Shown here in pieces: positions 16,331 through 37,664 of a stretch of DNA of 37,664 nucleotides. Every line of letters begins with the position of its first letter. Positions within the stretch are counted from its first letter, which is position 1. Location: contig JAUQOS010000003.1 of the NCBI GenBank assembly GCA_030550775.1, positions 1 to 37,664 of the forward strand, written 5' to 3'. The notes under the pieces are model-generated. The model was given only the letters and a program-made list of their open reading frames with translations. It made no database searches and had not been told where the DNA came from. Both the position numbers and the translations under genes were made by a program. This stretch comes from Armatimonadota bacterium (GTDB taxonomy: Bacteria > Armatimonadota > Fimbriimonadia > Fimbriimonadales > GBS-DC).

Positions 16331-16343
16331 GGGCGTGTTTAGG

Positions 16344-16572: not shown

Positions 16573-17130
16573 ATGCTAGTTCGAACACGACGCCGCGCAC
16601 GCGGCTCGATGCTGTTAGAGGTAGTGCTCGCCAGCGCGATTGGCGGGATCGCAATCGCATTGATTGTGGGCACGCAAATCCATGTGTTGCGCAACTATCA
16701 GCGCGCGTTGGCACATAACACGGGCAACCGCGCCGCCTATAACGCGCTGCGCGAGATTCGGACGATTGCCCAGCTAGCAATGCGCGCGACTGTATTGGGC
16801 AATACCGTGACCCTTACTCTGCCGGCGCGCGCGCCCACAGGGCAACTGATTCTACCGCTGCAACCCGACCCTGCAAACGCCGCAACGATAACCGCCGATA
16901 TGGCAACTGGGCAGCTAATACTCACGCATGGGGGGCAGACGCGTGTGCTCCTGCGCAATCTGGTGAACACCACTCCTCAGGGTGCCCCCTATGCGCCCTT
17001 CGCGGTGCAGCAGGTAGCACCAGGTGTGGTGGTACTCCACGTGCGCCTGAGTGTGCGCGAAACTCATGCCAGCGGTACCGAACGGTTTTTGTATGAAGAA
17101 ACCATTATGCTGCGCAACGCAGTACGCTAG
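16573..17130 (+). CDS. PilW/GspJ-like minor pilin
   Basis: MLVRTRRRARGSMLLEVVLASAIGGIAIALIVGTQIHVLRNYQRALAHNTGNRAAYNALREI; RBS GGGGAGG. Confidence 0.75.
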   Translation: MLVRTRRRARGSMLLEVVLASAIGGIAIALIVGTQIHVLRNYQRALAHNTGNRAAYNALREIRTIAQLAMRATVLGNTVTLTLPARAPTGQLILPLQPDPANAATITADMATGQLILTHGGQTRVLLRNLVNTTPQGAPYAPFAVQQVAPGVVVLHVRLSVRETHASGTERFLYEETIMLRNAVR

Positions 17131-17145
17131 CGGGAGGTGAACCTA

Positions 17146-18990: not shown

Positions 18991-18998
18991 CCGCTGGT

Positions 18999-19020
18999 GC
19001 GACGGCATTCTTGCCGTCGC
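18999..19020. repeat. Dispersed palindromic repeat (GCGACGGCA-N4-TGCCGTCGC)
   Basis: 9-bp perfect stem; flank CTGGTGCGACGGC recurs at 28898-28908. Confidence 0.65.
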
Positions 19021-19055
19021 CAACTGCACCAACGCACTCAGGGAGGTATGCGACC

Positions 19056-19535
19056 ATGACGATGCGAACAATCACAGCAACTGTTGTATGCATCGCGATT
19101 TGGAGCACAGGCTGGGCGATTGCCACCGAAGGGCGTAACCCAAACGAGCGCCCCAGTTGGTGGAAAGAGTATGAGAACGCGCCTGCGATTGAAGTCAGCC
19201 CACAAGCGGTTGCGCCCAAGGGCGATGTGCCCAGCGTGGTGGACGAGGCGGTGACGCGCTATGCCCCCTCAGGCGTGCCACAGCACTTGGTCATTACACC
19301 TTCTACTGCTGCTCAGCACGGAACCGCTGCCCAAAACTTACCCACCATTGATTCAACACAAGTGCTGCGCGAGGCTGAGCGCCAACCCGCTTCGGGAGCG
19401 CAGCTACTGGGGCGCGGCGTGGCGATTTTAGCGGTGTTTTTGCTGATTGGTGGGAGCGCTGCGTTCGGAATCGTGCGATGGCTAAGCCAGCAGCTTCCAG
19501 AGCCGCCACAACCCTCGCGCCGACGGCGCTTCTAA
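19056..19535 (+). CDS. Hypothetical exported/membrane-anchored protein
   Basis: N-terminal hydrophobic signal MTMRTITATVVCIAIWSTGWAIA and C-terminal TM GRGVAILAVFLLIGGSAAFGIVRWL followed by basic tail. Confidence 0.55.
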   Translation: MTMRTITATVVCIAIWSTGWAIATEGRNPNERPSWWKEYENAPAIEVSPQAVAPKGDVPSVVDEAVTRYAPSGVPQHLVITPSTAAQHGTAAQNLPTIDSTQVLREAERQPASGAQLLGRGVAILAVFLLIGGSAAFGIVRWLSQQLPEPPQPSRRRRF

Positions 19536-19543
19536 CGCGCCGC

Positions 19544-19573
19544 AGGTACGACGGCAACGCTGCCGTCGTACCT
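19544..19573. terminator. 13-bp stem-loop between convergent genes (bidirectional terminator / repeat member)
   Basis: AGGTACGACGGCA-ACGC-TGCCGTCGTACCT. Confidence 0.65.
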
Positions 19574-19578
19574 CCCAA

Positions 19579-20403
19579 CTAACTCTGGAACACGGCGCGC
19601 AGCGTGTCGGCGATATGGCGCAAGCCTAACTCAGGAAACAGCCGATAGCCACTGACCTCCGCCGTGATGTAGCCCTGATAGCCAACCGCCTCCAACGCCG
19701 AACGCACCGCCATCCACGGCACATCGCCTTGCAACGGGTTGGTAAACCCTTGAATGTTGCCGATGTCGCTGCGGAAGTCTTTCACATGGACCCGCTTGAT
19801 GCGCGAGCCTAAAATGTTGATCCAGTGCTGTGGATAGCCGTATGCTAAGATGTTGCCTGCGTCAAAATAGACTCCCACATACGGGCTACCCAGCGAATCG
19901 ACCAAGTCGCGCATTTCCAGCGGGCTGAGCAGAAAACGGTTCCACACATTCTCAATGGCGATGGCTACTTTATAGCGTTCGGCATCAGGAAGGAGTTGCT
20001 GCAGGGCGTTTTTGGCGCGCTCGTAGGCAACATCGTAGGGTACTTCGGGCGTCACTACGCCTGGCACCACCAAGATGGCGTCGATTCCCATCGCGTGTGC
20101 CAAGCGCAGCTGATGCCGACATAGCTCGAGCGATTCCTCGCGCACTTTGGGGTCGGGGGCCGTAAACGGTTTTTGCCAGTAGACGCCTGTGGACAGGGCA
20201 CTCAACTCCACGCCGAGGGCATCAGCCTCGCGTCGGATTTGCTGGGCGTCGCTGTTGCTGGTTGTAGGGCTAATCGCTCCCGAGAACTCCATGTTGAACT
20301 CAATCGCGTCAAAGCCTGACTCTTTGGCGACGCGCAAGCAACTCTTCACATCCCATTCGCTGGGCATCGTCCAGCGATTGATAGCAATCTTGAACGCTGG
20401 CAT
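19579..20403 (-). CDS. Sugar phosphate isomerase/epimerase (xylose isomerase-like TIM barrel)
   Basis: VAKESGFDAIEFNMEF, VAIAIENVWNRFLLSP, VGVYFDAGNILAYG, RIKRVHVKDFR. Confidence 0.85.
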   Translation of the reverse strand: MPAFKIAINRWTMPSEWDVKSCLRVAKESGFDAIEFNMEFSGAISPTTSNSDAQQIRREADALGVELSALSTGVYWQKPFTAPDPKVREESLELCRHQLRLAHAMGIDAILVVPGVVTPEVPYDVAYERAKNALQQLLPDAERYKVAIAIENVWNRFLLSPLEMRDLVDSLGSPYVGVYFDAGNILAYGYPQHWINILGSRIKRVHVKDFRSDIGNIQGFTNPLQGDVPWMAVRSALEAVGYQGYITAEVSGYRLFPELGLRHIADTLRAVFQS

Positions 20404-20491
20404 AGATATGGGTTTCTCGCCTCAGCTCCCGATTCCTGCAACCCACTGTTGGTTCCGCCGAGCAAGGAGGAGGACAGGCAGGTAGGCTGGT

Positions 20492-20821
20492 CTATTCAAC
20501 AGGCTCTGATTCGAGAGGTTCTTCTTCCTCCGCAGTTTCGGGGCTGAAAATCGCCTCGGGGCGACTGAGCCGTTTGGCAAGCGTTTCCTGCGTGAGGGCG
20601 GAGAGCACAATCTGCCCGCTGCTGAGGAAAATCACGCAGCGTGTGCGTCGCCCTTGCGTGGCATCAATGATGCGCGTGCCCTCGCGCCGCAGTTGCTGCA
20701 CCAGTCGCTTCACCGGCGCGGAATCGATGCGCACTAGCGCGACGATTTTGTCCGTCATCACAAAGTTGTAAAAGCCCACATTCAGCAGTGGGGGCAGGGT
20801 CGGCGTTCGCTCGTCTTGCAT
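20492..20821 (-). CDS. RemA/DUF370-family protein
   Basis: LNVGFYNFVMTDKIVALVRIDSAPVKRLVQQLRREGTRIIDATQGRRTRCVIFLSSGQIVLSALTQETLAKRL matches the RemA pattern (VGFGN, SAPIKR, DATxGRRTRxV, ILSxxxxET). Start codon uncertain. Confidence 0.85.
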   Translation of the reverse strand: MQDERTPTLPPLLNVGFYNFVMTDKIVALVRIDSAPVKRLVQQLRREGTRIIDATQGRRTRCVIFLSSGQIVLSALTQETLAKRLSRPEAIFSPETAEEEEPLESEPVE

Positions 20822-20863
20822 CGTAGGGCACAAGTTCGGCACTTCGCGGACGAGTCCTGCCTC

Positions 20864-20893
20864 TTGAATTCAGAGGCAGTGGCGTGGTATAAT
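20864..20893 (+). promoter_or_regulatory. Sigma70-type promoter of tRNA-Ala
   Basis: TTGAAT (20864-20869), 18-nt spacer, TATAAT (20888-20893), upstream of the tRNA at 20908. Confidence 0.7.
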
Positions 20894-20907
20894 TACTCCC
20901 GCAGCGT

Positions 20908-20983
20908 GGGGCGGTAGCTCAGCTGGGAGAGCGCTAGAATCGCACTCTAGAGGTCGGGGGTTCGAGTCCCCTCCGCTCCACCA
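20908..20983 (+). tRNA. tRNA-Ala (anticodon CGC)
   Basis: GGGGCGG/CCGCTCC acceptor, anticodon stem-loop CTAGA-ATCGCAC-TCTAG, T-loop TTCGAGT, encoded CCA. Confidence 0.95.
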
Positions 20984-21160
20984 CCATTCTGGAGTGAATC
21001 TCTGACGCCAACCTACCACAGGTTGCGGTTTGCCATGCACTACCGCCCTCGAATCTAGTGACCGTCGCATAGTCGTAGCTTCCCCCTGACCAAAGTACAT
21101 CCTCAGGTGCTGCTGGTACGAAGCACAGCAGGGCAACCGATTTTAGGTATCCTACGGATT

Positions 21161-22723
21161 ATGACAGCAGCTCCTGTGGCGTTGCTGAGCGTTTCCGACA
21201 AGCGCGGGTTGGAACTGTTCGCTCGCGGACTGCACGAGTTAGGCTTCCAACTGCTTTCCACAGGGGGCACGGCGCGCGCGTTGCATACTGCAGGCATTCC
21301 CGTGCGCGATGTAAGCGAGTGGACGGGCTTCCCCGAAATCTTAGATGGGCGCGTGAAGACCCTGCACCCGCGCATACACGCCGCGATTCTGGCAAACCTG
21401 CACCTGCCCGCGCACCGGCAAACCCTCAGCGATTTGAGCCTCAGCCCGATTACACTGGTGGCGGTCAACCTCTATCCGTTTGAGCAAGCGTGGCGTATGG
21501 GCGCGTCGGAGGCGGAGATGATTGAGCAGATTGACATCGGGGGACCGACGCTGGTGCGCGCAGCGGCGAAAAACTTTGAACATGTGGCAGTGGTGGTGCG
21601 CCCCGACGATTACGGGTGGGTGCTGAGCCGTTTGCGGGGAGGCGGGCTGAGCCGCGAGGAGCGCGCCCTGCTGGCGGCACGCGCCTTCGCCCATGTTGCC
21701 GAGTACGACGCGCTAATTGCCCAGTGGTTCCGTCGCTACGATCCCGAAGGCGTGCTGCCCAAAACGCTGACACTCACCTTCCGCCGTGTCCAACGCCTGC
21801 GCTACGGCGAAAACCCCCACCAGCAAGCGGCGTTCTATCGCGAGCCGTTTGCGCCCCCCAGCACCATCGCCACTGCGGAGCAACTGTGGGGCAAGGAACT
21901 TTCCTACAACAACCTGCTTGATGCCGATGCCGCACTGGAGCTGGTGCGCGAGTTCGAACAGCCAGCGTGCGTCATTGTGAAGCATACCAATCCGTGTGGT
22001 GTGGCGCTGGGCGCAAGTATTACAGAAGCCTTTCTGCGGGCCTACGAAGCTGACCCCGTGTCAGCATACGGAGGTATCGTGGCGTGCAACCGCCTGATAG
22101 ACCGCGAGGTAGCCGAGGCGATGGTGGCGCCGGGCACCTTTTTTGAGGTGATTTTGGCACCCGACTTTGCCCCCGATGCGCTTGTCTTGTTCCAAGAGCG
22201 CAAAGGCTGGGGGCAGAATGTGCGCCTGCTGCGCACGGGCGAGCTGTTGCCACCCGACCAACTGGCGGGCTACGCCCTACGCAGCCTCACGGGCGGCGCG
22301 CTTTACACGGAACGTGATGTAATTGACTGGAACCCCGACACCTTGCAGGTCGTTACGGAGCGCGTGCCCACCGAGGCGGAATGGGCAGATCTGCGCTTCG
22401 CATGGCGCGTGGTCAAGCATGTCAAATCCAACGCGATCGTGGTGGCAAAGGGGGGTGTCGTGTGGGGCGTTGGCGCGGGTCAGATGAACCGCGTGGGCGC
22501 GGTGCGCCTTGCCTTGGAGCAGGCAGGCGCGCACGCCCGTGGTGCCGTGCTGGCATCCGACGCCTTCTTCCCCTTTCCCGACAGCGTGGATTTGGCTGCG
22601 CAGGCGGGTATCCACGCCATTATCCAACCTGGAGGCTCCAAGCGCGACCCCGAGGTCATCGCCGCCGCTAACGAGACGGGCATCGCGATGGTATTCACAG
22701 GGGTTCGCCACTTTCGGCATTAG
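21161..22723 (+). CDS. purH: Bifunctional AICAR formyltransferase / IMP cyclohydrolase
   Basis: ALLSVSDKRGLELFARGL, STGGTARAL, DGRVKTLHPRIHAAIL, RYGENPHQQAAFY, KHTNPCGVALG, SDAFFPFPDSVDLAAQAGI. Confidence 0.97.
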   Translation: MTAAPVALLSVSDKRGLELFARGLHELGFQLLSTGGTARALHTAGIPVRDVSEWTGFPEILDGRVKTLHPRIHAAILANLHLPAHRQTLSDLSLSPITLVAVNLYPFEQAWRMGASEAEMIEQIDIGGPTLVRAAAKNFEHVAVVVRPDDYGWVLSRLRGGGLSREERALLAARAFAHVAEYDALIAQWFRRYDPEGVLPKTLTLTFRRVQRLRYGENPHQQAAFYREPFAPPSTIATAEQLWGKELSYNNLLDADAALELVREFEQPACVIVKHTNPCGVALGASITEAFLRAYEADPVSAYGGIVACNRLIDREVAEAMVAPGTFFEVILAPDFAPDALVLFQERKGWGQNVRLLRTGELLPPDQLAGYALRSLTGGALYTERDVIDWNPDTLQVVTERVPTEAEWADLRFAWRVVKHVKSNAIVVAKGGVVWGVGAGQMNRVGAVRLALEQAGAHARGAVLASDAFFPFPDSVDLAAQAGIHAIIQPGGSKRDPEVIAAANETGIAMVFTGVRHFRH

Positions 22724-23736
22724 CCAATCGCGCGGCGGAACAACAACACCGCCACAATCGCCATCGCCGCCGCGATGCCGTACAAAATCAACACTGTCTG
22801 CCGCTGGGTTAGTCCACGCTCCAGCAGCTGGTGGTGGATATGCTTCTTGTCGGGCATATGGATGGGCTGCCCTGTTAGAGCGCGGCGCACCACCGCCAAC
22901 CCCGCATCCAGCAATGGCAAACCGAACACCAAAATCGGAATAACGATCGCGAATGCGGTGGCAGTCTTGAACGCGCCGATCACCGACAGCCCGCCCAACA
23001 TAAAGCCCAGGAACTGCGCCCCGCCCGTGCCCATAAAGATGCGAGCAGGGTTGAAGTTATAACGCAAGAAGCCGCCCGCTGCACCCGCTATCGCCGCCGC
23101 AGTGATGGCAATCAACCAGTTGGGGTAGGGCTGGTTGAGCATATCGGCAGCTTGAAGCGCCATCAGCGCAAGCGCGAACGCCGCAATCGCGCTTACGCCC
23201 GCCGCTAAGCCGTCCAGCCCGTCAATCGTGTCCATCGTCTTACTGATAACGAAAATCCATAGCGCGGTCAGCGGAATGCTCCACGTGCCTAGCGAAATCC
23301 AGCGGGCTTGGTCAAACTTGCCGCCCAACGGCACGCTAATGCCTTCAATCTGTACACCGAACAGCTGAACCGCCAGCCCCGCCAGCAGCAGGAAGCCCAT
23401 CTGCACCAGTGCGGAAAGCGGTCGCTTATCGTCCAGCATGCCGACTAAAAGCACGCCTGTGCCCACCAACAGCAACCCGATAAACTGGAACGCCCGCCCC
23501 AGAAACACTTCATCGGAGGGTGCCAGCATGTAGAGGCGCAGCAGCCCTGCGAGCATGCCCACTACCACACCCGCGTAAATCGCCAGCCCGCCCCAACGCG
23601 GAATCGGCTCGGTGTGTACGCGCCGCGCATCGGGAATGTCCATCACGCCCATTCGGATTGCCCACTGGCGCACGCGCGGGGTCAGCAAGTAAGTGGTCAC
23701 TAACGCCACGATAAAAACCGCTGTAATAGTTTTCAT
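22720..23736 (-). CDS. WecA/MraY-family undecaprenyl-phosphate glycosyl-1-phosphate transferase
   Basis: [85 protein letters not shown]. Confidence 0.93.
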
Positions 23737-24200
23737 CGCTTCGGTTTGTACGGTGCTAAATCCACCTCAGTAATTGTACCTTCGTAGTAGCGCGCCAGTT
23801 GTACGCCTGCCTCTGCAAAGAGTTCCAGCGCGAACTCGTCGGGGTAGTCGCCCTCGAACACCACGCGCTGGATGCCTGCATTGATAATCATCTTGGCGCA
23901 GTGATTACAGGGCTGATGCGTGACATAAATCGTGGCGCCGCGTGTGGAGACGCCGTTGAGGGCAGCTTGCAAAATCGCGTTCTGCTCGGCATGCAGGGCG
24001 CGAATGCAGTGCCCCGCCACGACGTAGCAGCCCACTTCGGTACAGTGTGCCAGCCCGGTGGGCGCGCCGTTGTAGCCGGTGGCTAAGATGCGCTTGTCTA
24101 ACACAATCACTGCACCGACGCTGCGGCGGGGGCAAGTGGCGCGCGTAGCCACCAACCGCGCAATCTCCATAAAATATTCATCCCAGCTGGGTCGGCTCAT
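23733..24200 (-). CDS. dCMP deaminase (ComEB-like)
   Basis: [66 protein letters not shown]. Confidence 0.93.
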
Positions 24201-24203
24201 CGG

Positions 24204-25298
24204 TCAGGAAGGATACCATGAACGCGAAGCGTGGGCGACCGCGCGCGCCAAAGCGTCGGCAGGAGGTAGGTTGGGGATGAGTGCGCTCACAGCTAGCAGT
24301 TGCACCCGCGGGAGCCGAGCAAGTGTTTCGCCACCTGCGCCTACACGCCCTGCCAAGACAATCACGGATTTGCCCAGCGCGACCGCTTGCTGGATCAGCA
24401 CCCCCACACCCTTACCCATCAGTGTTTGAGCATCCACCTGACCTTCGCCCGTGATGAGACACTCGACACGCTGCAGGCGTGCGTCCCACTCAATGTGGCG
24501 CAACAGCCACATAATGCCCGATACGATTGGGGCATCCAAGTAGGCGTGTAAGCCGCCTGCCAGACCGCCCGCTGCGCCCGCGCCCAGCGTGCTGAGCAAA
24601 TCCACGCCGCGCTCACGCTGTGCAACCGCTGCCAGCTGCTGCAACCCGTGCTCCAGCTGTGCCACTTGTTCAGGGGTTGCACCTTTTTGAGGGGCATAGA
24701 TGCGCGCGGCATCCAGTAAGGTGTTTTGCACATCGGCGCACAGCAGCAATGGTTTGTTCAGCAATGGGTCAAACAGGGGTGGCTCAATCACGTGCAAGCG
24801 CAGCAAGCCCGCGCCGTTGGGCGCCACAAGTTCGCCCTCGGCGTCGCGCAGGTGGAAGCCGAGCGCAGCGAGCGCACCCAGCCCGCCATCGGTGGTTGCC
24901 ACACCGCCCAGCCCCAGCCACAGTGCCTGCACAGCAGGGTGCATCGCAACCGCGCGTATCAGTTCGCCCACACCATAGGAAGTTGCCTCCAGCGGGGCGC
25001 GCTCCTCTGGCGCAAGCAGATGCAGTCCGCACACCTGAGCCGACTCCAACACCGCAACGCCGTTGGGCAACAGCAGCCACCTCGCCTCGCGCGCACGCCC
25101 CAAAGCATCTTGCACCGTCTGTGTGAACGCCTGCGCCTCTGGAAAATGGAATTGCCATACCTCCAGCCAGCCCGTGCCCCCATCGGCAATGGGGCAAAGG
25201 TCATAGCTGCCCGCAGGTAGGGCGCGGGCAATGGCTTCGGCAGCTTCTGTGGGCGTGAGCGTGCCCTTGTAGGCAGTAGGTGCAACCAAGAAGCGCAT
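24204..25298 (-). CDS. Glycerate kinase (GarK/GlxK family)
   Basis: MRFLVAPTAYKGTLTPTEAAEAIARAL, PIADGGTGWLEV, LGLGGVATTDGGLGALAALGF, LITGEGQVDAQTLMGKG. Confidence 0.93.
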   Translation of the reverse strand: MRFLVAPTAYKGTLTPTEAAEAIARALPAGSYDLCPIADGGTGWLEVWQFHFPEAQAFTQTVQDALGRAREARWLLLPNGVAVLESAQVCGLHLLAPEERAPLEATSYGVGELIRAVAMHPAVQALWLGLGGVATTDGGLGALAALGFHLRDAEGELVAPNGAGLLRLHVIEPPLFDPLLNKPLLLCADVQNTLLDAARIYAPQKGATPEQVAQLEHGLQQLAAVAQRERGVDLLSTLGAGAAGGLAGGLHAYLDAPIVSGIMWLLRHIEWDARLQRVECLITGEGQVDAQTLMGKGVGVLIQQAVALGKSVIVLAGRVGAGGETLARLPRVQLLAVSALIPNLPPADALARAVAHASRSWYPS

Positions 25299-25301
25299 CG
25301 C

Positions 25302-26096
25302 TTACTCCAGTCGTCCGTGCTCGCGGGCATAACGCGTGGCGATCGCTTCCAGAATGCCTTCGGTGGAAGCAGGTGGATGCTCTGGCATGCCCAGCGACTC
25401 GCGCACACGCTGATACAACTCCCACGCCAGTTGTTCGCGGGCGTCGGGGCTAAGCTGCTCGCGACGGTCTAAAAAGGCACGCAGGGCACGATACTCGTTC
25501 GGGCTGAGCGTCAGCAGTTGCGGCAAGTGAAACTCCAGTGGATGGGGAGCAGCGTCTGCAGGGGCAAGCCGCTCCAGCGTGGGCAGTGGCACGTGCCGCT
25601 CCTTGATGACAAACGTACCCGCCAACCGATCGCCTAACCGCTGTCCGTAGGGACTGAAAAACGCCAACAGCCCCGCCACATTGTAGCCCACAATGCACAG
25701 CGGAAAGGCATCCACCAGCCGCACCAGCTCGCGCATAAACACCGCGGTAGGCGTCACTGGGGAGCCGTCCAACATCATCACGCGCAAGCCAAACGCACGC
25801 TTGGCAGGCGTTTGTCCGTTCCAGAAAATCTCAAACGCAATGTAGTAGACAAACCAGATAAGATAAGCAAAAAACAGAAAGCCCGCAATCACCCAGTTCT
25901 CACCAGTGAGCTCGTAGAGGCGCGAGATAAGTTGTGTGGTCTCTTCCAGCCAGGCTAATCCACCCGCAACCAGCGTCACAATCAGCAACACCAGCAGGTC
26001 GTCCAACACTGCTGCCAGCGCGCGCGAGCCGATGCCCGCGATTTCATAACGAATCTCCACCTTCTCTGGGCTTTGCAGCACAAACTCGTAAGGCAT
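25302..26096 (-). CDS. RDD-family membrane protein
   Basis: [61 protein letters not shown]; start trimmed to MPYEFVLQ. Confidence 0.85.
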
Positions 26097-26149
26097 GGCG
26101 CGCCACCACAAGTGTACCTAATGCGCGCTGGGGTACAATTGGCGTTGTC
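26097..26149. promoter_or_regulatory. Divergent promoter region RDD gene / mnmG
   Basis: Minus TACACT (26116-26111) and plus TACAAT (26134-26139), 17 bp apart, within inverted TGTACC...GGTACA. Confidence 0.5.
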
Positions 26150-28048
26150 ATGCCCGATTACGATGTGATTGTGGTGGGGTCGGGGCACGCAGGATGTGAA
26201 GCGGCGTTAGCGGCTGCGCGAATGGGCTGTCGCGTGGCGGTCATTACGCTCAACATCGAGCGCACCGCCCATATGCCTTGCAACTGCTCAATCGGCGGTC
26301 CTGCCAAAGGGCACTTGGTGCGCGAAATTGACGCGCTGGGCGGGCAGATGGGCATCAATATTGACCGCACCCTCACGCACATTCGGCATGTGGGCACGGG
26401 CAAGGGACCTGCAGTGCGCACGCTGCGCGCCCACGCCGACAAAGCCCACTACCCCGCCGAGATGCTGCGCACTCTCCAATCTCAGGAGAACCTCACGCTT
26501 ATTCAAGGTTCGGTAGAAAGGTTGGTGGTACGCGATGGCGTGTGCGTAGGCGTGGAGATGCGCCCCGATGGAGGTGAGACGGTATCTGTGAGCGCGCACG
26601 CGGTCGTACTGACGACGGGCACCTTCTTGAACGGTCTATGCCACATCGGTGAGCAAAAAATTCGCGCGGCGCGCTTTGGCGACCAGCCTGCCGTGGGGCT
26701 AACCGAGTCGCTGCGCCAACTCGGTTTCCGCATCGGCAGGTTCAAAACGGGCACCACCCCCCGCATTGACAAGAAAAGCGTTGACCTCACGCGCCTTGTG
26801 GAGGTGCCGTCGGAGCCATGCCCGCCGTTTTCATATCTACACGATGCGCTCAACCCGCCACGCCCCTTGCTGCCGTGCTGGCAAACCCACACCAACGAGC
26901 GTACCCATGCCATCATCCGTGCGAATCTGCACCGCTCGGCAATGTACGGCGGGCATATCGTCGGTATCGGACCACGCTACTGCCCCAGCATCGAGGACAA
27001 AATCGTGCGCTTCCCTGACAAGGAGCACCACCCTGTCTTTTTAGAGCAAGAATATTGGGACGCCGACGACCTTTATGTGCAAGGCATGTCCACCAGCTTG
27101 CCTGCCGAGGTGCAGTTGGAGTTCCTGCGCACCTTGCCCGGACTGGAAGAAGTGGTGATGATTCGCCCCGGCTACGCAGTGGAGTACGACATGGTCTACC
27201 CCGACCAGCTGCACCCGACTCTGATGACCAAAGCAGTGCGGGGGCTGTTCTTAGCGGGGCAAATCAATGGTACTTCGGGCTACGAGGAGGCAGCGGCGCA
27301 GGGCTTGGTGGCAGGCATCAATGCCGCCCTCTATGTGCAAAGGCGCGAACCAATGGTATTAGACCGTGCCAGCAGCTATATCGGCGTACTAATCGACGAC
27401 TTGGTCACCAAAGGCGTGGAAGACCCATATCGCATGCTCACAGGGCGCGCGGAGCATCGGTTGCACCTTCGCCACGATAACGCCGACGAGCGACTGACAC
27501 CCATCGGGCGCGCGGTGGGGCTGGTAGACGACAAGCGCTGGCGCCGCTACCGCGAGCGTCAAGCACTCTTGAACGCCGAGTTGGAAACCCTGCGCCGCTT
27601 AGAAATCAGCGGCAGACACAATCCACAACTGCAGGCGTTAGGCGGCACCCCTGTAAACGCCCGTGTCTCCGCGTTGGAGTACCTGCGCCGCCCCGAAGTT
27701 AGCTACGCAATGCTCCAGCAGCTGTTCCCCGAAGCCTTGCGTGCCTCTGCCGAAATCGCCGAGCGCGTGGAAATCCTCGCCAAATACGAGGTCTACCTGC
27801 GCAAGCAGCAGCAACAGATCGAGCAAATGCGCAAAGTGGAGCACTGGATTATCCCCGATGATATTGACTATCACGCGCTTACTGCCATCTCCAAAGAGTC
27901 GCGCGAGAAACTAAGTCGCGTGCGCCCGCGCACGATTGGGCAAGCGGCGCGCATCCCAGGCATTCGCCCCGCCGACATCGCCTGTTTGATGGTTTATCTT
28001 CGCGCGCATAGCGAGGCAAAATCGCCCGCTGCCGCAGAATCGCAGTAG
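26150..28048 (+). CDS. mnmG: tRNA uridine-5-carboxymethylaminomethyl modification protein MnmG (GidA)
   Basis: [79 protein letters not shown]; start trimmed from the 704-aa listed ORF. Confidence 0.96.
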
Positions 28049-28083
28049 GAAATAGCAACCAAGTGGCGTATAATTAGCTCGGA

Positions 28084-28866
28084 ATGACACAGCCACAAAC
28101 GGTAGCAGGCACAACGGTTGGCGAGGGCGCCGCAACCGAGTTCGTGGTGCGCGTGCGCGATGTGGTCAAGGAGTATCAAATGGGCAAGTTGACCGTGCGC
28201 GCGCTCGACGGCGTGACTTTGGATATCTATCGCGGCGAGTACCTCTCAATTATGGGACCCTCGGGCTCGGGCAAGAGCACGCTGTTCAACATGATCGGCG
28301 GGCTGGATAAGCCCACCTCTGGCTCTGTGTTTATTGATGATGTGGACATGGCGCAGCTCGACCCGCAAGAGTTGGCGTACCTGCGCTGCCACCGCATCGG
28401 CTACATTTTCCAGACTTTCAACCTGATCCCTGTAATGACCGCGCTGGAAAATGTGACGCTGCCGATGATTTTCGCGGGTGTGAACGCCGACGAGGCACGC
28501 GAGCGCGGGATTGAGCTACTCACGCTAGTGGGGCTGGGCGGACGACTGCACCACAAGCCTAGCGAGCTGTCGGGCGGGCAGCAGCAGCGCGTCGCCATCG
28601 CACGCGCCTTAGCGAACAACCCCTCTATCATCCTCGCCGACGAGCCAACGGGCAACCTCGATCTGAAAACGGGCAAGGAAATCATCGAGCTGCTCAAGCG
28701 GCTCAACCGCGAGCGCGGCGTCACCATCATCTCCGCCACGCACGACCTCAAGATGCTGGACATCTCCGATCGCATCGTGTGGATTCGCGACGGCAAAATC
28801 GAGCGCATCGAGAAGCGCAGCGAGCTCCATCTGACGGTTGGCGAGGTAGAAGGCGAGGCTGGGTAA
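28084..28866 (+). CDS. ABC transporter ATP-binding protein (MacB/LolD type)
   Basis: Walker A GPSGSGKST, LSGGQQQRVAIARAL signature, ILADEPTGNLD. Confidence 0.95.
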   Translation: MTQPQTVAGTTVGEGAATEFVVRVRDVVKEYQMGKLTVRALDGVTLDIYRGEYLSIMGPSGSGKSTLFNMIGGLDKPTSGSVFIDDVDMAQLDPQELAYLRCHRIGYIFQTFNLIPVMTALENVTLPMIFAGVNADEARERGIELLTLVGLGGRLHHKPSELSGGQQQRVAIARALANNPSIILADEPTGNLDLKTGKEIIELLKRLNRERGVTIISATHDLKMLDISDRIVWIRDGKIERIEKRSELHLTVGEVEGEAG

Positions 28867-28897
28867 GGGCAGCGTCTCTGCTGAGTGACTATTTACT

Positions 28898-28954
28898 GGT
28901 GCGACGGCTTTCCTGCCGCTCACAGTTGTGCAACGCCACGAAAGGCGTTGCACC
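28898..28954. repeat. Dispersed palindromic repeat member with adjoining 10-bp hairpin
   Basis: CTGGTGCGACGGCTTTCCTGCCG, nearly identical to 18994-19016, followed by GTGCAACGCC-ACGAAA-GGCGTTGCAC (28928-28953). Confidence 0.6.
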
Positions 28955-29011
28955 AAAGTCGTGGTATCAGTGTCCTCGCCAACAAACGGCGGTCTCCAAC
29001 AATCAATCACC

Positions 29012-30136
29012 TCAATCGTACATCAAGAACGGCTCACGGCGTCGCTTGAAGCCCTCCACATCGCGGGCACAGCGCTGGAGGATGCGCTCTGGCTCGACAC
29101 CATCCACCACCATCGCATGCACCTCGCGGTTCGCCAGCAGCCCCAGTGCTTTCTGCACCTCCCACTCGCGCGGGTAGAGCTTGCGCAGGCAGTACGCCAG
29201 CCCGATGCCCAACGCAAAGGGGCGCAGCTGCGCACGGTCGGTAATAAATACTGAAACGCCTTGACACTCCACGCCCTTGTAAGTGCTGGCAGTGGGCGTG
29301 AACCCAAGAGGCACGAAGCGTGCCCCTGCGCTGGTTGGCAGTTCGTTGAGCATACCTGCCAGCTTGCGACCATCAATCCATGGCGCGCCCACGACTTCAA
29401 ACGGCGTATCCGTGCCGCGCCCAACGGAAAGATTCGTGCCCTCCCACACGCCGATGCCCACATACAAGAACGCCTGCTGCAACCGCCGCATGTTCGGCGA
29501 CGGGTTCACCCAAAACAGGTTGCACGCATCAAAAGTCATGTCGCGTTTCCAACCCTCGCAAGGCACCACTACCAGCTCCGCGCCGATACCGCGCTCGGCA
29601 TTGAACATCCGCGCCAGTTCGCCCACTGTCATGCCGTGCCGCAGGGCGATCGTGTGATAAGCCGTGAACGAAAGACGGTCGGGGTCTGCCAGTGGTCCTT
29701 CAACAGCGTCACCAATAGGGTTGACCCGATCCAGCACATAGAAAGGAATCTTGCGCTCGGCTGCAGCCTCCATCGCCAGCCCCATCGTGGAAATGTAAGT
29801 ATAGTAGCGCACGCCGATGTCTTGAATATCGAAAATCAGCGCGTCGAGGTTTGCCAGTTGTTGGGGCGTGGGCTTCTTGCGCTCACCGTAGAGGCTGTAG
29901 ATCGGCAGCCCTGTGCGCTCATCAATGCTGTCAGGCACTAACTCGTCCAGCTGCCCACGGATGCCGTGCTCAGGGCTAAACAATGCGCCAATCGTGATGC
30001 CCAGCCGACGCAGCTTATCGATAAGCGGCTCGCGTTCTGCGGTAAGCCCAGTGTGGTTCGTAATAACGCCCACACGCGCGCGTTTCAAACCGTCCAAAAA
30101 ATGCTCTAACCGATCAATGCCGTTTTTGACTGCCAC
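29012..30136 (-). CDS. DUF1343-family protein (NamZ-type exo-N-acetylmuramidase-like)
   Basis: VGVITNHTGLTAEREPLIDKLRRLGITIGALFSPEHGIRGQLDE, LDALIFDIQDIGVRYYTYISTMGLAMEAAAE, VLDRVNPIG, GTNLSVGRGTDTPFEVVGAPWID. Confidence 0.92.
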   Translation of the reverse strand: MAVKNGIDRLEHFLDGLKRARVGVITNHTGLTAEREPLIDKLRRLGITIGALFSPEHGIRGQLDELVPDSIDERTGLPIYSLYGERKKPTPQQLANLDALIFDIQDIGVRYYTYISTMGLAMEAAAERKIPFYVLDRVNPIGDAVEGPLADPDRLSFTAYHTIALRHGMTVGELARMFNAERGIGAELVVVPCEGWKRDMTFDACNLFWVNPSPNMRRLQQAFLYVGIGVWEGTNLSVGRGTDTPFEVVGAPWIDGRKLAGMLNELPTSAGARFVPLGFTPTASTYKGVECQGVSVFITDRAQLRPFALGIGLAYCLRKLYPREWEVQKALGLLANREVHAMVVDGVEPERILQRCARDVEGFKRRREPFLMYD

Positions 30137-30291
30137 GCGCTATGTTGTACCCGAAGGTGCAAACTTTTCTGCTTAGGGGTTCCACCACTGATAGAGGGAA
30201 CTTTCGGGAGTAAGTGCATTTTGCAAAGGTAGTCTGTCGCTCCGCGCGGTGCAGGATTCGCTTGCTCAAAACGATTAGGCATCCACTGAGT

Positions 30292-31665
30292 CTATTCCAG
30301 TTGTTCGTCATCGGTGGGCTGAGGGGTTTTTGGCGGGGTGGGTTTGGGGCGCGGCTTTGTGCCAACAGCAACTACACGGGGCTGGGCACGGTAGGTACTG
30401 ATTGCCACGCGCTCGCGCCTGACCAGTTGCCCGTGTTCGTAGACCTCTCGCCACAGCACCACGCGGAAGCCTGCACTGCCCTTTTTGAGCACCCGCTGCA
30501 TGCCTTCGGGGAGACTGGGGTCAGGAATGTGTTTGACAGGTGGTGTTGGTAGGGCGTAGCGTTCCGTGCGTAGCACTATCCGACGCCCTTCCCGCGGCAC
30601 ACCCAAAATATGCACCGTTAGCGTGGAGCGCTTCACTTCGGTGGCGATTGCAATCGGGTGGTCAAACGGGTTTTCAATCACCAAGTCGATCGCGCCGTCT
30701 ACAACGGTTGCATCGCGTCCTAACGGCACATAGTCTACAGGAATAGCGTGGTTTGCACGGCGCACGATGGTCAAATCGCTCAGCAGCGCGGCGTTGAACA
30801 GCGTACTGGAGACTTGGCATACGCCCCCGCCGATGCCCAACTGCTTCTCGCCGTTGATAATCACTGGTGCTAATTGGAAGCCGCGCTTTGCGGTACGCTT
30901 GCCCACTACCTGATTGTAGGAAAGTCGCTCACCAGGTAGCAACACGATGCCGTTGAGCGCGTTAGCTGCCAAGCGGAGGTTGTGAGTGCGCAGCCGTTGG
31001 GCAGCCGAAAAGCGCGTAGTGTAGCTGGCGATAATGCTGCGAATAGGTTGTATGTCTTCGGTGCGCAGCCGCGGGGGTATTGTGGTGAACGCCAGCTCGA
31101 ACTCGGTGCGTGGAGCAGGCAGTTGGCGCAAGGCGCGAATGAGGTTCTGGGTACTGGCGTTGAGGTCAAGCCGCCGCCCGTCTTGGCTGGGGGTAATCAC
31201 AACTTGCCCATCCACAAGGCTCACACGAGCGTCCACAGGGGCGCGCTCCAGAAAGCGGTATCGCTCTAACTGGGCTTGGAACAGCTCGGGCAAGATTGCC
31301 CACTGCGGTTCAAGGTACAGGCGCGGTTTGCCCAGCAGGCGTTGCCACAGAGGCACGCGCTGCCACGCGCGGATAATCGTCGCTTGGGTGGTGGCGACAT
31401 CCAGTTCAACGCCCCACTCTTTTAGGCGCGTGGTGATAGTGGGTGCTTGCGCCACAACCACAGGTTGGTCTGCCCATACAAGGCGCAGCCGCTCCAGATG
31501 ATAGCCAAGCGCGCTGGGGCGCACGCCTGCCAACGAGTACCCCCCCAGCTGCACACCGCTGGACAGCGGTGCGTCCGCTGTAAGCCCCCACAGCACTGCC
31601 CCCGTGATTATGCCTGATACTGCAGCTCCTGCAAGAAGCAGCGCGCCGAACCTTTGACGATTCAT
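30292..31665 (-). CDS. VanW-family protein
   Basis: N-terminal TM then YTTRFSAAQRLRTHNLRLAANALNGIVLLPGERLSYNQVVGKRTAKRGFQLAPVIINGEKQLGIGGGVCQVSSTLFNAALLSDLTIVRRANHAIPVDYVPLGRDATV. Confidence 0.92.
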   Translation of the reverse strand: MNRQRFGALLLAGAAVSGIITGAVLWGLTADAPLSSGVQLGGYSLAGVRPSALGYHLERLRLVWADQPVVVAQAPTITTRLKEWGVELDVATTQATIIRAWQRVPLWQRLLGKPRLYLEPQWAILPELFQAQLERYRFLERAPVDARVSLVDGQVVITPSQDGRRLDLNASTQNLIRALRQLPAPRTEFELAFTTIPPRLRTEDIQPIRSIIASYTTRFSAAQRLRTHNLRLAANALNGIVLLPGERLSYNQVVGKRTAKRGFQLAPVIINGEKQLGIGGGVCQVSSTLFNAALLSDLTIVRRANHAIPVDYVPLGRDATVVDGAIDLVIENPFDHPIAIATEVKRSTLTVHILGVPREGRRIVLRTERYALPTPPVKHIPDPSLPEGMQRVLKKGSAGFRVVLWREVYEHGQLVRRERVAISTYRAQPRVVAVGTKPRPKPTPPKTPQPTDDEQLE

Positions 31666-31728
31666 CTCGAAAGCGCTCTGAATTCTACCTCGTGGTAGAG
31701 TGTTCACGATTGCCCTACCTGCCCCCGT

Positions 31729-31750
31729 CAACTTGGGTTCAACTTGGGTT
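31729..31750. repeat. Two tandem copies of an 11-mer (CAACTTGGGTT)
   Basis: 31729-31739 and 31740-31750 identical, intergenic between aceA and the VanW gene. Confidence 0.6.
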
Positions 31751-31799
31751 CCTGACCCCCAAAAAGAAAGGGGGGGTTCAAGCCCGCCCCACACGCTGG

Positions 31800-33083
<1,284 letters not shown>

Positions 33084-33096
33084 AGGTCGATACCTC

Positions 33097-33139
33097 CTCT
33101 CAGCCCTGAGAGTGTGAGTCGTCGGCGTCCGCGCCGACG
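33097..33139 (-). other. Two hairpins in the aceB-aceA intergenic region
   Basis: CTCTCAG-CC-CTGAGAG (33097-33112), partly covering the aceA RBS, and CGTCGGCG-TCCG-CGCCGACG (33120-33139). Confidence 0.6.
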
Positions 33140-33149
33140 CCACAGCGAG

Positions 33150-34751
33150 TTAGTCAATGTACTCGTACGCTACCAGCGTAACGAAATCGATAAACTCTTG
33201 CGAGAGCACCACACGCTTGAGGATTGCTGCAGCTTCATCCAAGCGGTGGGGCGTTGCGCCGTAGCTGGCTTTGATGGCGCTAAGTTCCTCGTCCAACATT
33301 TGCATAAACAGATCAGCCGTAATCGTGCGACCGTCGGAGAGTTGCGCCTTGCGCTGAATCCACTGCCACAGTTGCGAGCGCGAAATCTCCACTGTTGCAG
33401 CGTCCTCCATCAGATGGTTGATGGCGGCAGCGCCCGTGCCACGCAACCACGAATCGAGATAGCGCAGGCTCACATTGATGTTGGTGCGCATACCCTGCTC
33501 CGTGATATCGCCACGCGGGAAGTTGAGCAGGTCTTGCGCAGTGATGATGCGCTGTGGGATTTTGTCAATCTGGTTTGGTTGCGGCATGTGCTTGTTGAAC
33601 ACTTCCATCACCACTGGCACCAAGCCTGGGTGGGCGACCCAAGTGCCATCGTAGCCCTCGCTGACCTCGCGCTCCTTGTCCGCAACCACTTGGGCAATTG
33701 CTTTCGCGTTGGCTTCGGGGTCATCGCGGCGCGGAATATACGCCGACATGCCCCCAATTGCGTGAATGCCCCGCTTGTGGCACGCCTGCACCACTAACTC
33801 GGAATAGGCTTTCATAAACGGCACGGTCATTGTCAGTGTGGAGCGGTCTGGCAGCACGATGTCCTCGCGATTGCGGAACTTGCGGATGATGCTAAACAGA
33901 TAATCCCATCGCCCGCTGTTCAGCCCCGCGGAGTGCTCGCGCAGCTCATACAGGATCTCCTCACACTCAAACGCCGCAAGGATGTTTTCAATCAGCACGG
34001 TGGCGCGGATGGTACCGCGCGGAATGCCCAACTGCTCTTGCGCGTAAACAAACACATCATTCCACAGACGGGCTTCCAGGTGGCTCTCTAACTTGGGCAG
34101 GTAGAAGTAGGGACCTGTGCCTCGCCGAATCAGCTCATGTGCGTTGTGGTAGAAGTACAGCCCAAAGTCCACCAGCGCGCCGGGCGCAGGTTCACCGTCG
34201 ATGTAGATGTGTTTTTCGGGCAGGTGCCAGCCGCGCGGGCGCACACATAACACTGCAGTTTGCTCGTTGAGCCGATACTCTTTGCCCTCAGGGCTGGTGT
34301 ACTCTATTGTGCGGCGTACCGCATCATAAAGGTTGATTTGCCCTTGCACGCAATTGTCCCAAGTAGGCGAGTTGGCGTCCTCGAAGTCTGCCATGAACAC
34401 TTTGGCGCCCGAGTTGAGCGCGTTGATAATCATCTTACGATCTACAGGACCTGTGATTTCCACGCGACGATCCAGCAAATCGGGGGGTGGCGGGGCAACT
34501 TTCCAATCGCCTGTACGGATGTGCTCGGTTTCGGGCAAAAAGTCAGGATTTTCGCCCGCGTTCAAGCGGGCTTGACGCTCCTCGCGCAGGCGCAGCAGTT
34601 CCTTGCGTCGCGGATTGAACTGGCGTACCAACGCCGCCACAAAACGCAGGGCATCGGGGGTCAAAATCGTGGTGTAGGCGGGCAAAACGGCGCCATGGAT
34701 TTCAATTCCGTCGGCGGCTAACTGACGGTTCAACTCCTCTCGGTGATCCAT
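33150..34751 (-). CDS. aceB: Malate synthase (A type)
   Basis: [98 protein letters not shown]. Confidence 0.96.
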
Positions 34752-34772
34752 CCCTCGCCTCCGTCGCGCTTT

Positions 34773-34794
34773 TTTGACTGGCTGGTCAGTCAAA
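34773..34794. promoter_or_regulatory. TetR-type palindromic operator upstream of aceB
   Basis: TTTGACTG-GCTGGT-CAGTCAAA (8-6-8 inverted repeat), 3 nt downstream of a minus-strand TATAAT. Confidence 0.65.
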
Positions 34795-34797
34795 ACT

Positions 34798-34803
34798 ATT
34801 ATA
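34798..34803 (-). promoter_or_regulatory. -10 box of predicted aceBA promoter
   Basis: TATAAT on the minus strand; predicted start site falls within the adjacent palindrome. Confidence 0.55.
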
Positions 34804-34945
34804 CCTTCTTCAAGCAAAGCGGCAGACTTTGCCTCAAATGCGGTTGCGCTGCTGAGGGCGCAAAGGGGCAAGTACTACAAGCATGAGGTCATCGGTTTTC
34901 AGGCGAGTGGGTTCGGTGGTGCCCCAAACAGCGCATCGTCGTTTA

Positions 34946-34995: not shown

Positions 34996-35065
34996 CCTCG
35001 CTTGAGTGGGGCAACTCCGACAAAAAGCCCGAATTACCGTCTATTCGTTGTGGTTACAAAGACAA

Positions 35066-35092
35066 GAGGGCGAGGCTCCAAGCCTCGCCCTC
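35066..35092 (-). terminator. Strong terminator of the capsid module
   Basis: 12-bp perfect stem GAGGGCGAGGCT-CCA-AGCCTCGCCCTC just downstream of the gpT-like stop; minus strand continues into TTGTCTTT. Confidence 0.8.
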
Positions 35093-35099
35093 CGATTGG

Positions 35100-36027
35100 T
35101 TAGCCTGTGCCCATCAGCGCGGTCTGCCACAGTCCGTAGCCCACGCCGTAGCGGGCTCGGGCGCCGTAGAACACCTTGTCGCGCATAAACACTTGCTCGC
35201 TGTCGGGCTTATCCAGCGCGGCGAACTCCAGGGGCACATCGCGTTGCTCTTGCAGCACCACCGCACGCACTGCCCGCGAAGTGTCTAACAGGAACCACTT
35301 GTTCTCGTGGGCGCCCGTGATGTAGGGCGACACAATTAGGCGCAGCTTGCCCTGCAACACATTCCGGTAGGGTGTGAAGTTGTTCGCTGTGTTCGCCTGC
35401 ACCACAATCGGCGATTCCAGCAGCTCCATCGCCAGCCACTGCAGTTTGGGACCTACCAACAGCGTGTCGGGCATAATCCCCATCGGGCGTCCGCGATCGT
35501 CCTTGAACTGCATCATCTGCGCGATAGCGGCTTGCAGACTGTTGGTTGACAGCGCGCCGTTGTACACATTGCTTTGTAGCCTGCTTTCGCCCACTTGGTG
35601 GTCGGTATCAAACAGCAGTTGCCCGTTATCATCGCCCGTCAATCGCGCCCCGAATCAGGGCTTCCACAACCAGCTGCTCTTTGTGGCGCACCACCTCGCG
35701 GGCGAGGTCGCGCACGCGCATGCGAATCATATCGTACTGTTCGTCCTCCAAAGCGCGTCGCTCGACAGCGATGGATGCCTCCCACACTTGGTCGCTGATG
35801 GTGTATTCGTACACGCCCAAGCCTGCGGGTTGGCGCTCGTCTGTGAACTCGCGCATCACAGGCACGCTGCCCAGCCAACCGTACTTTTGCACGGGCAGGT
35901 TCGTGCGCACAATTGTAGCGATTTGAGGCACGAGGCTCGTTTCATCCAATCGGCGATAGGCGCGGAAAAACTCTGCGCGTAGCCCTGCTTCCACCAGCGA
36001 AAGCAAGTCACTGCGTACCAGTGGCAT
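35100..36027 (-). pseudogene. Mu gpT-like major head subunit, apparently frameshifted (ORFs 35629-36027 and 35100-35642)
   Basis: Part 1: YGWLGSVPVMREFTDERQPAGLGVYEYTISDQVWEASIAVERRALEDEQYDMI...EALIRGAIDG; part 2: DDNGQLLFDTDHQVGES...WFLLDTSRAVRAVVLQEQRDVPLEFAALDKPDSEQVFMRDKVFYGARARYGVGYGLWQTA. Order and motifs match Mu gpT. Removing one G from GGG (35635-35637) joins the frames. Confidence 0.75.
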
Positions 36028-36041
36028 CGCGGCTCACCTCC

Positions 36042-36455
36042 TTACACCGTGTGGTTGTCGATGCGGATACGCACGCGGTTGCCGTCCACCAGTTCCACGA
36101 CAGTGCCCACGATGAGGTTATGCGTGCTGGTTTTGGCAACCTCGTTATCGCTCACGGCGCGCACGGGCAGCCCCACATCGGCTTGCGAGAAGTTGCCAAC
36201 GCGATTGTATACGAAGCTACCGCGCTTGAGGACGCGGCATCGCTTAGCGCCGCTGGCGCCGCCTGTATTGTCAACGCTTTCGAATGCCACACCGACAAAG
36301 CGCATGTTCGGCGCGTCTGCTGCGGGCACGAGATTGCCTGTGTTATCCACGCACACCAGCGCGCCCTTCCAGATTTTGGCGTTCATTTTCACGGGGTAGG
36401 CAATGATTAGCCCTTCGCGCTCGTAGGTCTCATGTGGCTGAGTAAGGGCAGGCAT
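36042..36455 (-). CDS. Capsid decoration / DUF2190-like protein
   Basis: PHETYEREGLIIAYPVKMNAKIWKGALVCVDNTGNLVPAADAPNMRFVGVAFESVDNTGGASGAKRCRVLKRGSFVYN; located between protease/scaffold and capsid genes. Confidence 0.65.
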   Translation of the reverse strand: MPALTQPHETYEREGLIIAYPVKMNAKIWKGALVCVDNTGNLVPAADAPNMRFVGVAFESVDNTGGASGAKRCRVLKRGSFVYNRVGNFSQADVGLPVRAVSDNEVAKTSTHNLIVGTVVELVDGNRVRIRIDNHTV

Positions 36456-36456
36456 T

Positions 36457-37245
36457 TCAGCGCACCTCCTTCGTGTGAGTGAGGATTTCGGCGGGATCTA
36501 ACTCGGGAAATGCCCGTTGCAAAAATGCCAACGCTTCCGCGCTGAAAGCGGGCAACTCCGCTTCGGGCGTAGGCGCCAGCTCCGCGCTCCAGTTGCGAGC
36601 AGGCAAGCTGCTTACAAAACGACGGAACAGCTCGCTGACCGAAATGGTTTCACCACTGAACTGCACAGGGGCATCACCGTATAGCAGAATCGCCTCTGCC
36701 AACGGCGCAAGCGCAGGAGGCAGTTGCCCGCGCAGGTTCCACTGTTGCACTTGCTCGCGTGCCTCGCGGCGACGCAACTCGGCTTCCAACTCGCGAATGC
36801 GTGCCAGCAGCGCCTCCTCCGACGGCGCCATCGTCTCGTGCATCTCCACAGTCTCCAAGCGAATCACCTCCTGTGTCGGAAGCGCAGCGTGAAACAGTTG
36901 GGCATCGGGAACGCGAGGGTTTGCCGTAATCGAAACCTCCAGCAGGCGACGCAGATCGCGGCTTAGCCCCGCGCTCAGCCCACGCAACCGCAGGCGACGC
37001 AGCAGAGCATCGGCTTCGGGAAACAACGCCAGCCTGCCGAACAGCGCACCGCCTCGCCGCCACACCGCCACTAACCAGCCCAACACCAGCGGCGAAGGGC
37101 GATGCTCTACCAGAATCGGCACAGGGGCACGGAAAGTGTGCACTAGCCGCTCCAACAGCGGTTCGGTAATCACCACCCCTTTGTCAGGATAGACCCCCGC
37201 CTCCATCGACTTCGCCTCGCGGTAAATCCACGCTGCGCTCAACAT
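36457..37245 (-). CDS. Mu gpI-like prohead protease/scaffold
   Basis: AAWIYREAKSMEAGVYPDKGVVITEPLLERLVHTF...ILVEHRPSPLVLGWLVAVWRRGGALFGRLALFPEADALLRRLRLRGLSAGLSRDLRRLLEVSITANPRVPDAQLF, followed by a charged scaffold-like region. Confidence 0.7.
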   Translation of the reverse strand: MLSAAWIYREAKSMEAGVYPDKGVVITEPLLERLVHTFRAPVPILVEHRPSPLVLGWLVAVWRRGGALFGRLALFPEADALLRRLRLRGLSAGLSRDLRRLLEVSITANPRVPDAQLFHAALPTQEVIRLETVEMHETMAPSEEALLARIRELEAELRRREAREQVQQWNLRGQLPPALAPLAEAILLYGDAPVQFSGETISVSELFRRFVSSLPARNWSAELAPTPEAELPAFSAEALAFLQRAFPELDPAEILTHTKEVR

Positions 37246-37312
37246 TCCATCCGCTTAGGGATAATAGCAACTGCTTGGGGCAACCCAATCAACTTTGCAC
37301 TCGAAAAGGCGG

Positions 37313-37318
37313 TATAAT
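37313..37318 (+). promoter_or_regulatory. -10 box 9 nt upstream of ATG (candidate leaderless promoter)
   Basis: TATAAT-CTTGTGGAA-ATG. Confidence 0.5.
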
Positions 37319-37327
37319 CTTGTGGAA

Positions 37328-37664
37328 ATGCCAATCACCCGTGAAGACTTGCGTGAACTGCCGAAACTACTGCAGGAGGACCCCGAACTGCGGTTGGAGC
37401 TGGCACGCCAAATACTAAGCCACTCCGTTATTTCTGAACTGATGCGCCGCGACCCTGAAATTGCCGAAGCACTCCGCACGGCTGTACTGACAGAAGAGCT
37501 ATTGCGTCTTCCCGCCAAGTTCGACAAGTTCCAGGCTGAGATGACGGAGTTCCGAGACAGAACGCTCCAGTTCCAAGCCGAGATGACGGAGTTCCGAGAC
37601 AGAACGCTCCAGTTCCAAGCCGAGATGACGGAGTTCCGAGACAGAACGCTCCAGTTCCAAGCCG
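37328..37664 (+). CDS. Coiled-coil protein with 14-aa tandem repeats, truncated by window end
   Basis: MPITREDLRELPKLLQEDPELRLELARQILSHSVISELMRRDPEIAEALRTAVLTEELLRLPAKFDKFQAEMTEFRDRTLQFQAEMTEFRDRTLQFQAEMTEFRDRTLQFQA...; open to the window end and absent from the supplied ORF track. Resembles N-termini of coiled-coil proteins that often carry a C-terminal DUF3782/PD-(D/E)XK domain. Confidence 0.7.
   Translation, partial: MPITREDLRELPKLLQEDPELRLELARQILSHSVISELMRRDPEIAEALRTAVLTEELLRLPAKFDKFQAEMTEFRDRTLQFQAEMTEFRDRTLQFQAEMTEFRDRTLQFQA
37529..37664 (+). repeat. 42-bp in-frame tandem repeat (three full units plus partial)
   Basis: Units 37529-37570, 37571-37612, 37613-37654, partial 37655-37664; units 2 and 3 identical, unit 1 differs at two synonymous positions (CAG GCT versus CAA GCC). 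Confidence 0.95.

Follow-up and report, generated by a model that had tools for sequence, protein, structure and literature searches.

Mu-type head and packaging genes dispersed through Armatimonadota genomes: a probable gene transfer agent-like system

Gene transfer agents (GTAs) are covered by the ICTV definition of viriforms, and only three GTA groups recognised in 2022 had established genetics, each of them proteobacterial or spirochaetal (PMC9662315). RcGTA, BaGTA and BhGTA (VSH-1) carry tailed-phage-derived TerL, portal, protease, major capsid protein (MCP) and neck genes that have become fixed parts of the host genome, frequently spread over several loci, are inherited vertically and lack self-mobility (PMC9662315). 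The Armatimonadota genes described here resemble them in these respects, and the features of the GTA definition that we found are proteins derived from Caudoviricetes, endogenisation at several loci and vertical inheritance (PMC9662315). In contrast to the known groups, they belong to a Mu-type head lineage, occur in another phylum, come without recognisable tail genes and are dispersed, in the extreme case as single genes flanked by host genes. We infer packaging and transfer from these genes and file the system as GTA-like rather than as a demonstrated GTA.

Several other systems share part of this gene set. Mu and the Mu-like siphophage JBD30 have the same Mu-type portal (PF06074), a gpT-family MCP and, when compared with the Armatimonadota families in which the genes are clustered, the same order of TerL, portal, protease, cement and MCP genes; the Armatimonadota proteins differ in being less than 42% identical to those of any phage, and no transposase, tail or replication genes were noticed with them. 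Among satellites, capsid-forming phage-inducible chromosomal islands (cf-PICIs) are compact mobile islands with head and packaging genes and without tails; the Armatimonadota system likewise combines head and packaging genes without tails but is dispersed and vertically inherited. Encapsulins are HK97-fold shell proteins kept by cells, as is this one, whereas the Armatimonadota shell is kept together with protease, portal, terminase and neck proteins and has phage capsids as its closest folds.

We analyzed a 37,664-nucleotide stretch of an Armatimonadota genome (assembly GCA_030550775.1, contig JAUQOS010000003.1), referred to below as the window. We consider that it probably holds the capsid locus of a GTA-like DNA-packaging system of Armatimonadota, domesticated from a Mu-type head and inherited vertically. 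On our best reading this system is undescribed, was domesticated independently and apparently has no recognisable tail. In the literature searched, preprints and most subscription papers lying outside its scope, no GTA was reported from Armatimonadota. In a GBS-DC MAG (Fimbriimonadales), a comparable locus with portal, head and capsid genes was catalogued earlier as an incomplete prophage (PMC8597652), a warning that prophage finders file such loci under that label. If our reading is true, a Mu-head-derived GTA across much of another phylum would mean an independent origin and a far wider reach of this kind of gene exchange.

The capsid locus and its flanks

An earlier note on this DNA had described a protease/scaffold, a decoration-like and a gpT-like capsid gene on one minus strand, and we identified all three there. 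The protease/scaffold gene (36457..37245, minus strand, 262 aa) has a weak PHROG head-protease match, and its relatives match phrog_976 (E 5e-6 to 8e-17). The protein combines an N-terminal protease-like domain, with one conserved His (VEH) and one conserved Ser (L-S-x-G/A-L) kept in all aligned sequences, and a C-terminal helical, scaffold-like part. Next comes the cement/decoration gene (36042..36455, minus strand, 137 aa; phrog_1731 E 2e-28, PF09956 E 9e-4), followed by the MCP gene. The ribosome-binding sites quoted in the note are present upstream of the cement and MCP ATGs, and its terminator is a real Rho-independent-terminator-like hairpin (35065..35093, minus strand; z = -4.1, with 0 of 200 shuffles as stable), with a stem of 13 rather than 12 bp. 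The TATTAT box that the note mentions does lie upstream of the operon as a -10-like sequence (37261..37266, minus strand), with no matching -35, and a promoter scan found no sigma-70-like promoter for the capsid operon.

What the note overlooked is that the MCP is not a single open reading frame in this genome. A 2-bp deletion located by DNA alignment at 35626..35636 (minus strand), and absent from all 10 genus members compared, splits it into an N-terminal part of 132 aa that stops just past the frameshift (35629..36027, minus strand; PF10124 E 1.8e-18) and a C-terminal part of 180 aa in another frame (35100..35642, minus strand; PF10124 E 2.1e-33, phrog_371 E 2e-35). The first part is 90% identical to residues 1-132 of an intact relative and the second, in which homology starts at about 35627, is 94% identical to residues 135-309. 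An Asp that is invariant beside the frameshift (D135 in alignments of relatives) is Asn in the window's MCP. A programmed frameshift was considered and ruled out, as the relatives have the missing two bases and a single intact frame.

The MCP aligns collinearly with PF25209; against the gpT Pfam model it is circularly permuted. Structure prediction, one of the checks that the note had proposed, was run with AlphaFold; modelling from 14 sequences gave an unusable model (pLDDT 46.5) and modelling from 68 sequences gave a pLDDT of 86.5. The best fold matches of the latter model were the phage Mu capsid, followed by those of JBD30 and HK97, with the RcGTA capsid also among the matches and an encapsulin at rank 29. 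A domesticated capsid could serve as an encapsulin-like protein compartment without packaging DNA, and the HK97 fold, the encapsulin match and the fact that just the protease, cement and MCP genes stand together in the window's family would suit such a shell; the Mu and JBD30 capsids being the closest folds and the lack of an attached cargo gene speak against it.

The flanks are those that the note had described. Downstream of the operon are the glyoxylate-shunt genes for malate synthase and isocitrate lyase, and upstream are a repeat/coiled-coil gene, coaD and lipid-A biosynthesis genes. We looked for a complete Mu-like prophage directly beyond the window and found none; by ORF inspection there were no phage genes upstream as far as about 50 kb on the 58-kb contig, only host genes, and no integrase, replication or tail genes beside the capsid module. 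The divergent coiled-coil gene (37295-37664 and beyond the window) encodes a tandem 14-residue repeat, AEMTEFRDRTLQFQ, and a run of N in the assembly lies inside this repeat just past the window's end.

The window's genome and 60 relatives were searched with the C-terminal half of the MCP; 43 of these 61 had it, almost always as one intact frame of about 311 aa. An alignment query found it in 128 of 292 Armatimonadota genomes from about 20 families, nearly always as a single intact copy; a fair share of Fimbriimonadales genomes are without the system. Named matches fall in Fimbriimonadales and other Armatimonadota MAGs and include the complete KatS3mg018 chromosome (AP024673.1). A contig labelled as a Methanoregulaceae archaeon (JADZEW010000005.1) carries a typical Fimbriimonadales capsid locus and probably comes from a mislabelled or mixed genome bin.

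The note had named absence from close relatives, with decay in all three genes, as an outcome that would speak against its reading; we instead found the genes present, intact and single-copy in these relatives. The dN/dS comparison that it had called for gave 0.059 for the MCP, 0.157 for the protease and 0.105 for the cement gene within the genus, estimated, like all such values below, at dS 0.75-1.1. The three capsid genes are thus under strong purifying selection in close relatives. In the synteny comparison suggested in the note, the order protease-cement-capsid was kept in nearly all fetched loci, and the flanking genes varied among relatives. Gene order in this genus is heavily scrambled; in a comparison against G003, G007, G009 and G010 with a 19.9-kb query, the 20 kb at window positions 15000-34900 mapped to more than 10 places in the complete G010 chromosome. 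Because the scrambling is general, differing flanks are expected and are no evidence of mobility. In four relatives (G003, G004, G005 and G016) the capsid gene is followed on the same strand by up to three copies of a protein family of about 120-200 aa, and in three of these four also by a protein of about 700 aa with no Pfam match. The downstream genes c8 and c19 were weighed as structural genes; only four genomes have them, and c19 has no family match.

Packaging and neck genes at other loci

The module had been called isolated, which is true locally, where host genes flank it, and untrue genome-wide, as portal, TerL and neck genes sit at other loci in the same genome. The search of flanking genome and relatives that the earlier note suggested recovered portal, terminase and neck genes, at separate loci, and no sheath, tape-measure or RcGTA-type tail-tip domain. 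In alignment searches (E<=1e-3) TerL was found in 155 and the portal in 144 of the 292 Armatimonadota genomes. At stringent cut-offs the counts were 122 for MCP, 127 for TerL and 121 for portal, with all three in 105 genomes, and pairwise co-occurrence odds ratios were 71-110 when genomes were counted as independent and kinship was ignored. TerL matches PF03237/PF17289 and the portal is of Mu type (PF06074, E 1e-67). The relatives' TerL keeps its Walker A (CGRRWGKTE) and Walker B (VDEAA) motifs and the nuclease acidic residues, and is by these motifs predicted to be catalytically complete. A more distant TerL relative (E ~1e-65 to 1e-71) occurs in six Fimbriimonadales genomes of genus g11 (G040, G045, G047, G051, G056 and G177) that have neither portal nor capsid of this system; it is perhaps part of another element or a remnant.

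The putative adaptor is present in all 18 members of the window's family. Where its operon was read, it also encodes a short protein of no known family, a membrane/coiled-coil protein and the putative closure protein; these two names were assigned by position, size and conservation, neither protein having a clear Pfam or PHROG match. Within the genus, dN/dS was 0.184 for TerL and 0.114 for the portal (three pairs each), and 0.113 for the adaptor and 0.229 for the closure gene (six pairs each). The co-retention of portal and motif-intact TerL with the capsid in 105 genomes under purifying selection, together with an adaptor kept throughout the family, contradicts a capsid-only compartment; we discarded that reading on the TerL/portal co-retention and regard it as highly improbable.

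The layout of these genes differs among families. In families f31 and f33-f35 they form one cluster of TerL, Mu-type portal, protease, cement and capsid, followed by adaptor (c5) and closure (c3); some of these clusters add a coiled-coil protein, a holin-like protein and an endolysin-like peptidase, and host genes come next. In two loci that were examined, TerL is preceded by a small terminase; none was seen beside TerL in the window's family. Families f3 and f5 usually have TerL and portal as an adjacent pair and the capsid and neck genes at a second locus tens of kilobases to about 1 Mb away, with the exception of G030, in which all head genes lie together. In families f19 and f32 TerL occupies a separate locus. 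The complete G010 chromosome, from the window's genus, has four loci (portal at 1.233, MCP module at 1.412, TerL at 2.273 and neck operon with adaptor at 2.556 Mb), 0.18-1.3 Mb apart and each alone among ordinary host genes. In this graded series, which runs from one cluster through a terminase-portal pair with a separate capsid locus to four loci, dispersal can be seen under way. The single head cluster looks ancestral, and in the window's family it would have split into three or four unlinked loci amid heavy genome rearrangement, each locus remaining under selection.

The scattering bears on how such genes could move and on what they would package. A head-only satellite or helper-dependent element of the capsid-forming-PICI kind, borrowing phage tails, would have a similar gene content, namely TerL, portal, protease, MCP and neck genes with no recognisable tail. 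Inspection of the flanks by eye revealed no adjoining integrase or replication genes, and because the loci are spread over more than 1 Mb and are vertically inherited, they cannot move as one island; we give this explanation very little credence. Under the GTA-like reading, the packaged DNA is most likely host DNA, since no head-sized contiguous piece of chromosome would be expected to hold the dispersed genes; the G010 spacing exceeds the capacity of a Mu-sized head, and the actual head size may differ.

Vertical inheritance, and apparent breakdown in the window's genome

We compared gene trees with GTDB family labels as a test of vertical descent. Each listed GTDB family formed one group in the MCP (41 rows), TerL (22) and portal (25) trees, and the number of family label changes in each tree was the least possible. 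Pairwise distances for the three genes correlated (r 0.91-0.94), and did so too when only Fimbriimonadales, whose loci are mostly unlinked, were considered. These trees indicate that MCP, TerL and portal are inherited vertically and probably co-diversify with the host. Only two of 2.9 million viral contigs encoded a relative (34% and 29% identical), and the best phage matches were 41% identical for MCP and 36%, to a Thermus phage, for TerL. The collections searched contained no circulating virus close to this lineage.

The frameshift in the window's MCP is not alone. In this genome (G000) the MCP, portal and adaptor genes are each split into two frames, and an in-frame stop interrupts TerL within a stretch where the frame is locally shifted. 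Elsewhere in the family, every TerL (14), portal (14, one of them truncated at a contig end) and adaptor (7) that was examined proved intact. To control for assembly error, we examined the host genes of the window's genome that could be compared with relatives and found 21 of 21 intact; other rows flagged in this control are, by their position, antisense shadow frames. With 4 of 9 system genes broken and 0 of 21 host genes, the one-sided Fisher P was ~0.005, which suggests a recent joint loss of the system in this genome. Some of the frameshifts could be assembly or sequencing errors. That unlinked loci decayed together would suit a single functional unit that has lost its use, and the system would be failing here. 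Lineages that, like this one, have apparently just lost the system offer a natural test of its purpose.

The earlier note had left three options open, a decayed prophage, part of a dispersed GTA-like system and a capsid-derived compartment, of which the separate loci, vertical inheritance and purifying selection support the second and contradict the first in its plain form, as well as the third. Independent Mu-like remnants eroding site by site would account for the frameshifts in MCP, TerL, portal and adaptor; the presence of a different, real prophage with TerL and a tape measure in G010 and the prophage finders' call of the similar GBS-DC locus point the same way. Such remnants would not be expected to persist across the genus as single intact copies with dN/dS of 0.06-0.23, to have intact frames in about 20 families, to give family-congruent MCP, TerL and portal trees, or to stand without an adjoining integrase, replication or tail gene. 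Decay does appear real in the window's genome, set against intact single-copy genes across the phylum. A stray remnant was ruled out by conservation, selection and trees, and we judge the decayed-prophage explanation as a whole quite unlikely.

Tail, release and uptake candidates

Gene identities, dispersal, co-occurrence, vertical inheritance, selection and frameshifts were read directly from the sequences; the steps of assembly and packaging proposed here are taken from the known roles of the protein families. Under the GTA-like reading, a prohead would form on the portal from the protease/scaffold and MCP, to be matured by the protease and stabilised by the cement protein. TerL would then pump DNA into the prohead through the portal, and the adaptor and closure proteins would seal the neck. 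On these grounds we infer that particles form, package host DNA, are released and carry DNA to kin.

Profile searches of the 18 family genomes found no tail sheath (PF04984) and no tape measure (PF10145), the latter model also missing the real tape measure of the G010 prophage. The RcGTA-type tail-tip domain PF13550 was found in 0 of 18 family genomes, with a positive Caulobacter control, and with PF13550 absent the Armatimonadota system is not of the RcGTA type (Rhodogtaviriformidae). A tail locus elsewhere in the genome was considered and set aside on the negative PF10145, PF04984 and PF13550 searches in the 18 genomes, a test weakened by the failure of PF10145 on a tape measure that PHROGs find.

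A phage-type amidase is present in 16 of the 18 family genomes, intact and single-copy in nearly all of these 16, and lies 3 kb from the portal in the window's genome; it is a candidate lysin that may instead be an ordinary cell-wall enzyme. Particle release may depend on a lysin or lysis operon kept by the host. ComEC occurs in 17 of the 18 genomes, so competence could be an uptake route, though ComEC is common in most bacteria. A more specific form of the GTA-like reading, an ancient, independent, tail-less ("head-only") GTA of Armatimonadota encoded at one- to four-gene loci, released by lysis and with its DNA taken up without a tail, for instance by competence, is one that we hold tentatively, as somewhat short of an even chance. 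The head could also have been exapted to package DNA for another use, such as altruistic release, nutrient DNA or structural DNA. All of the packaging evidence would hold equally for such a use, and no tail or delivery gene was found in these searches; nothing specific counts against it, but gene transfer is the known use of such systems, and we consider another use unlikely.

A separate region of G010 (G010:C1:668500-688400, L070) contains a GpA-type terminase, a portal-like gene, a cement gene and a 1094-aa tape measure, with a gpT-family capsid about 30% identical; it is apparently a real prophage and a contrast to the dispersed system. Longer clusters with this system's capsid type occur in two other lineages (L068 in G018 and L151 in G086). 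The L068 cluster includes an amidase, and the clusters encode large proteins (741-1231 aa, one of them with BNR repeats) that could serve as tail or adsorption proteins in a more complete, phage-like form.
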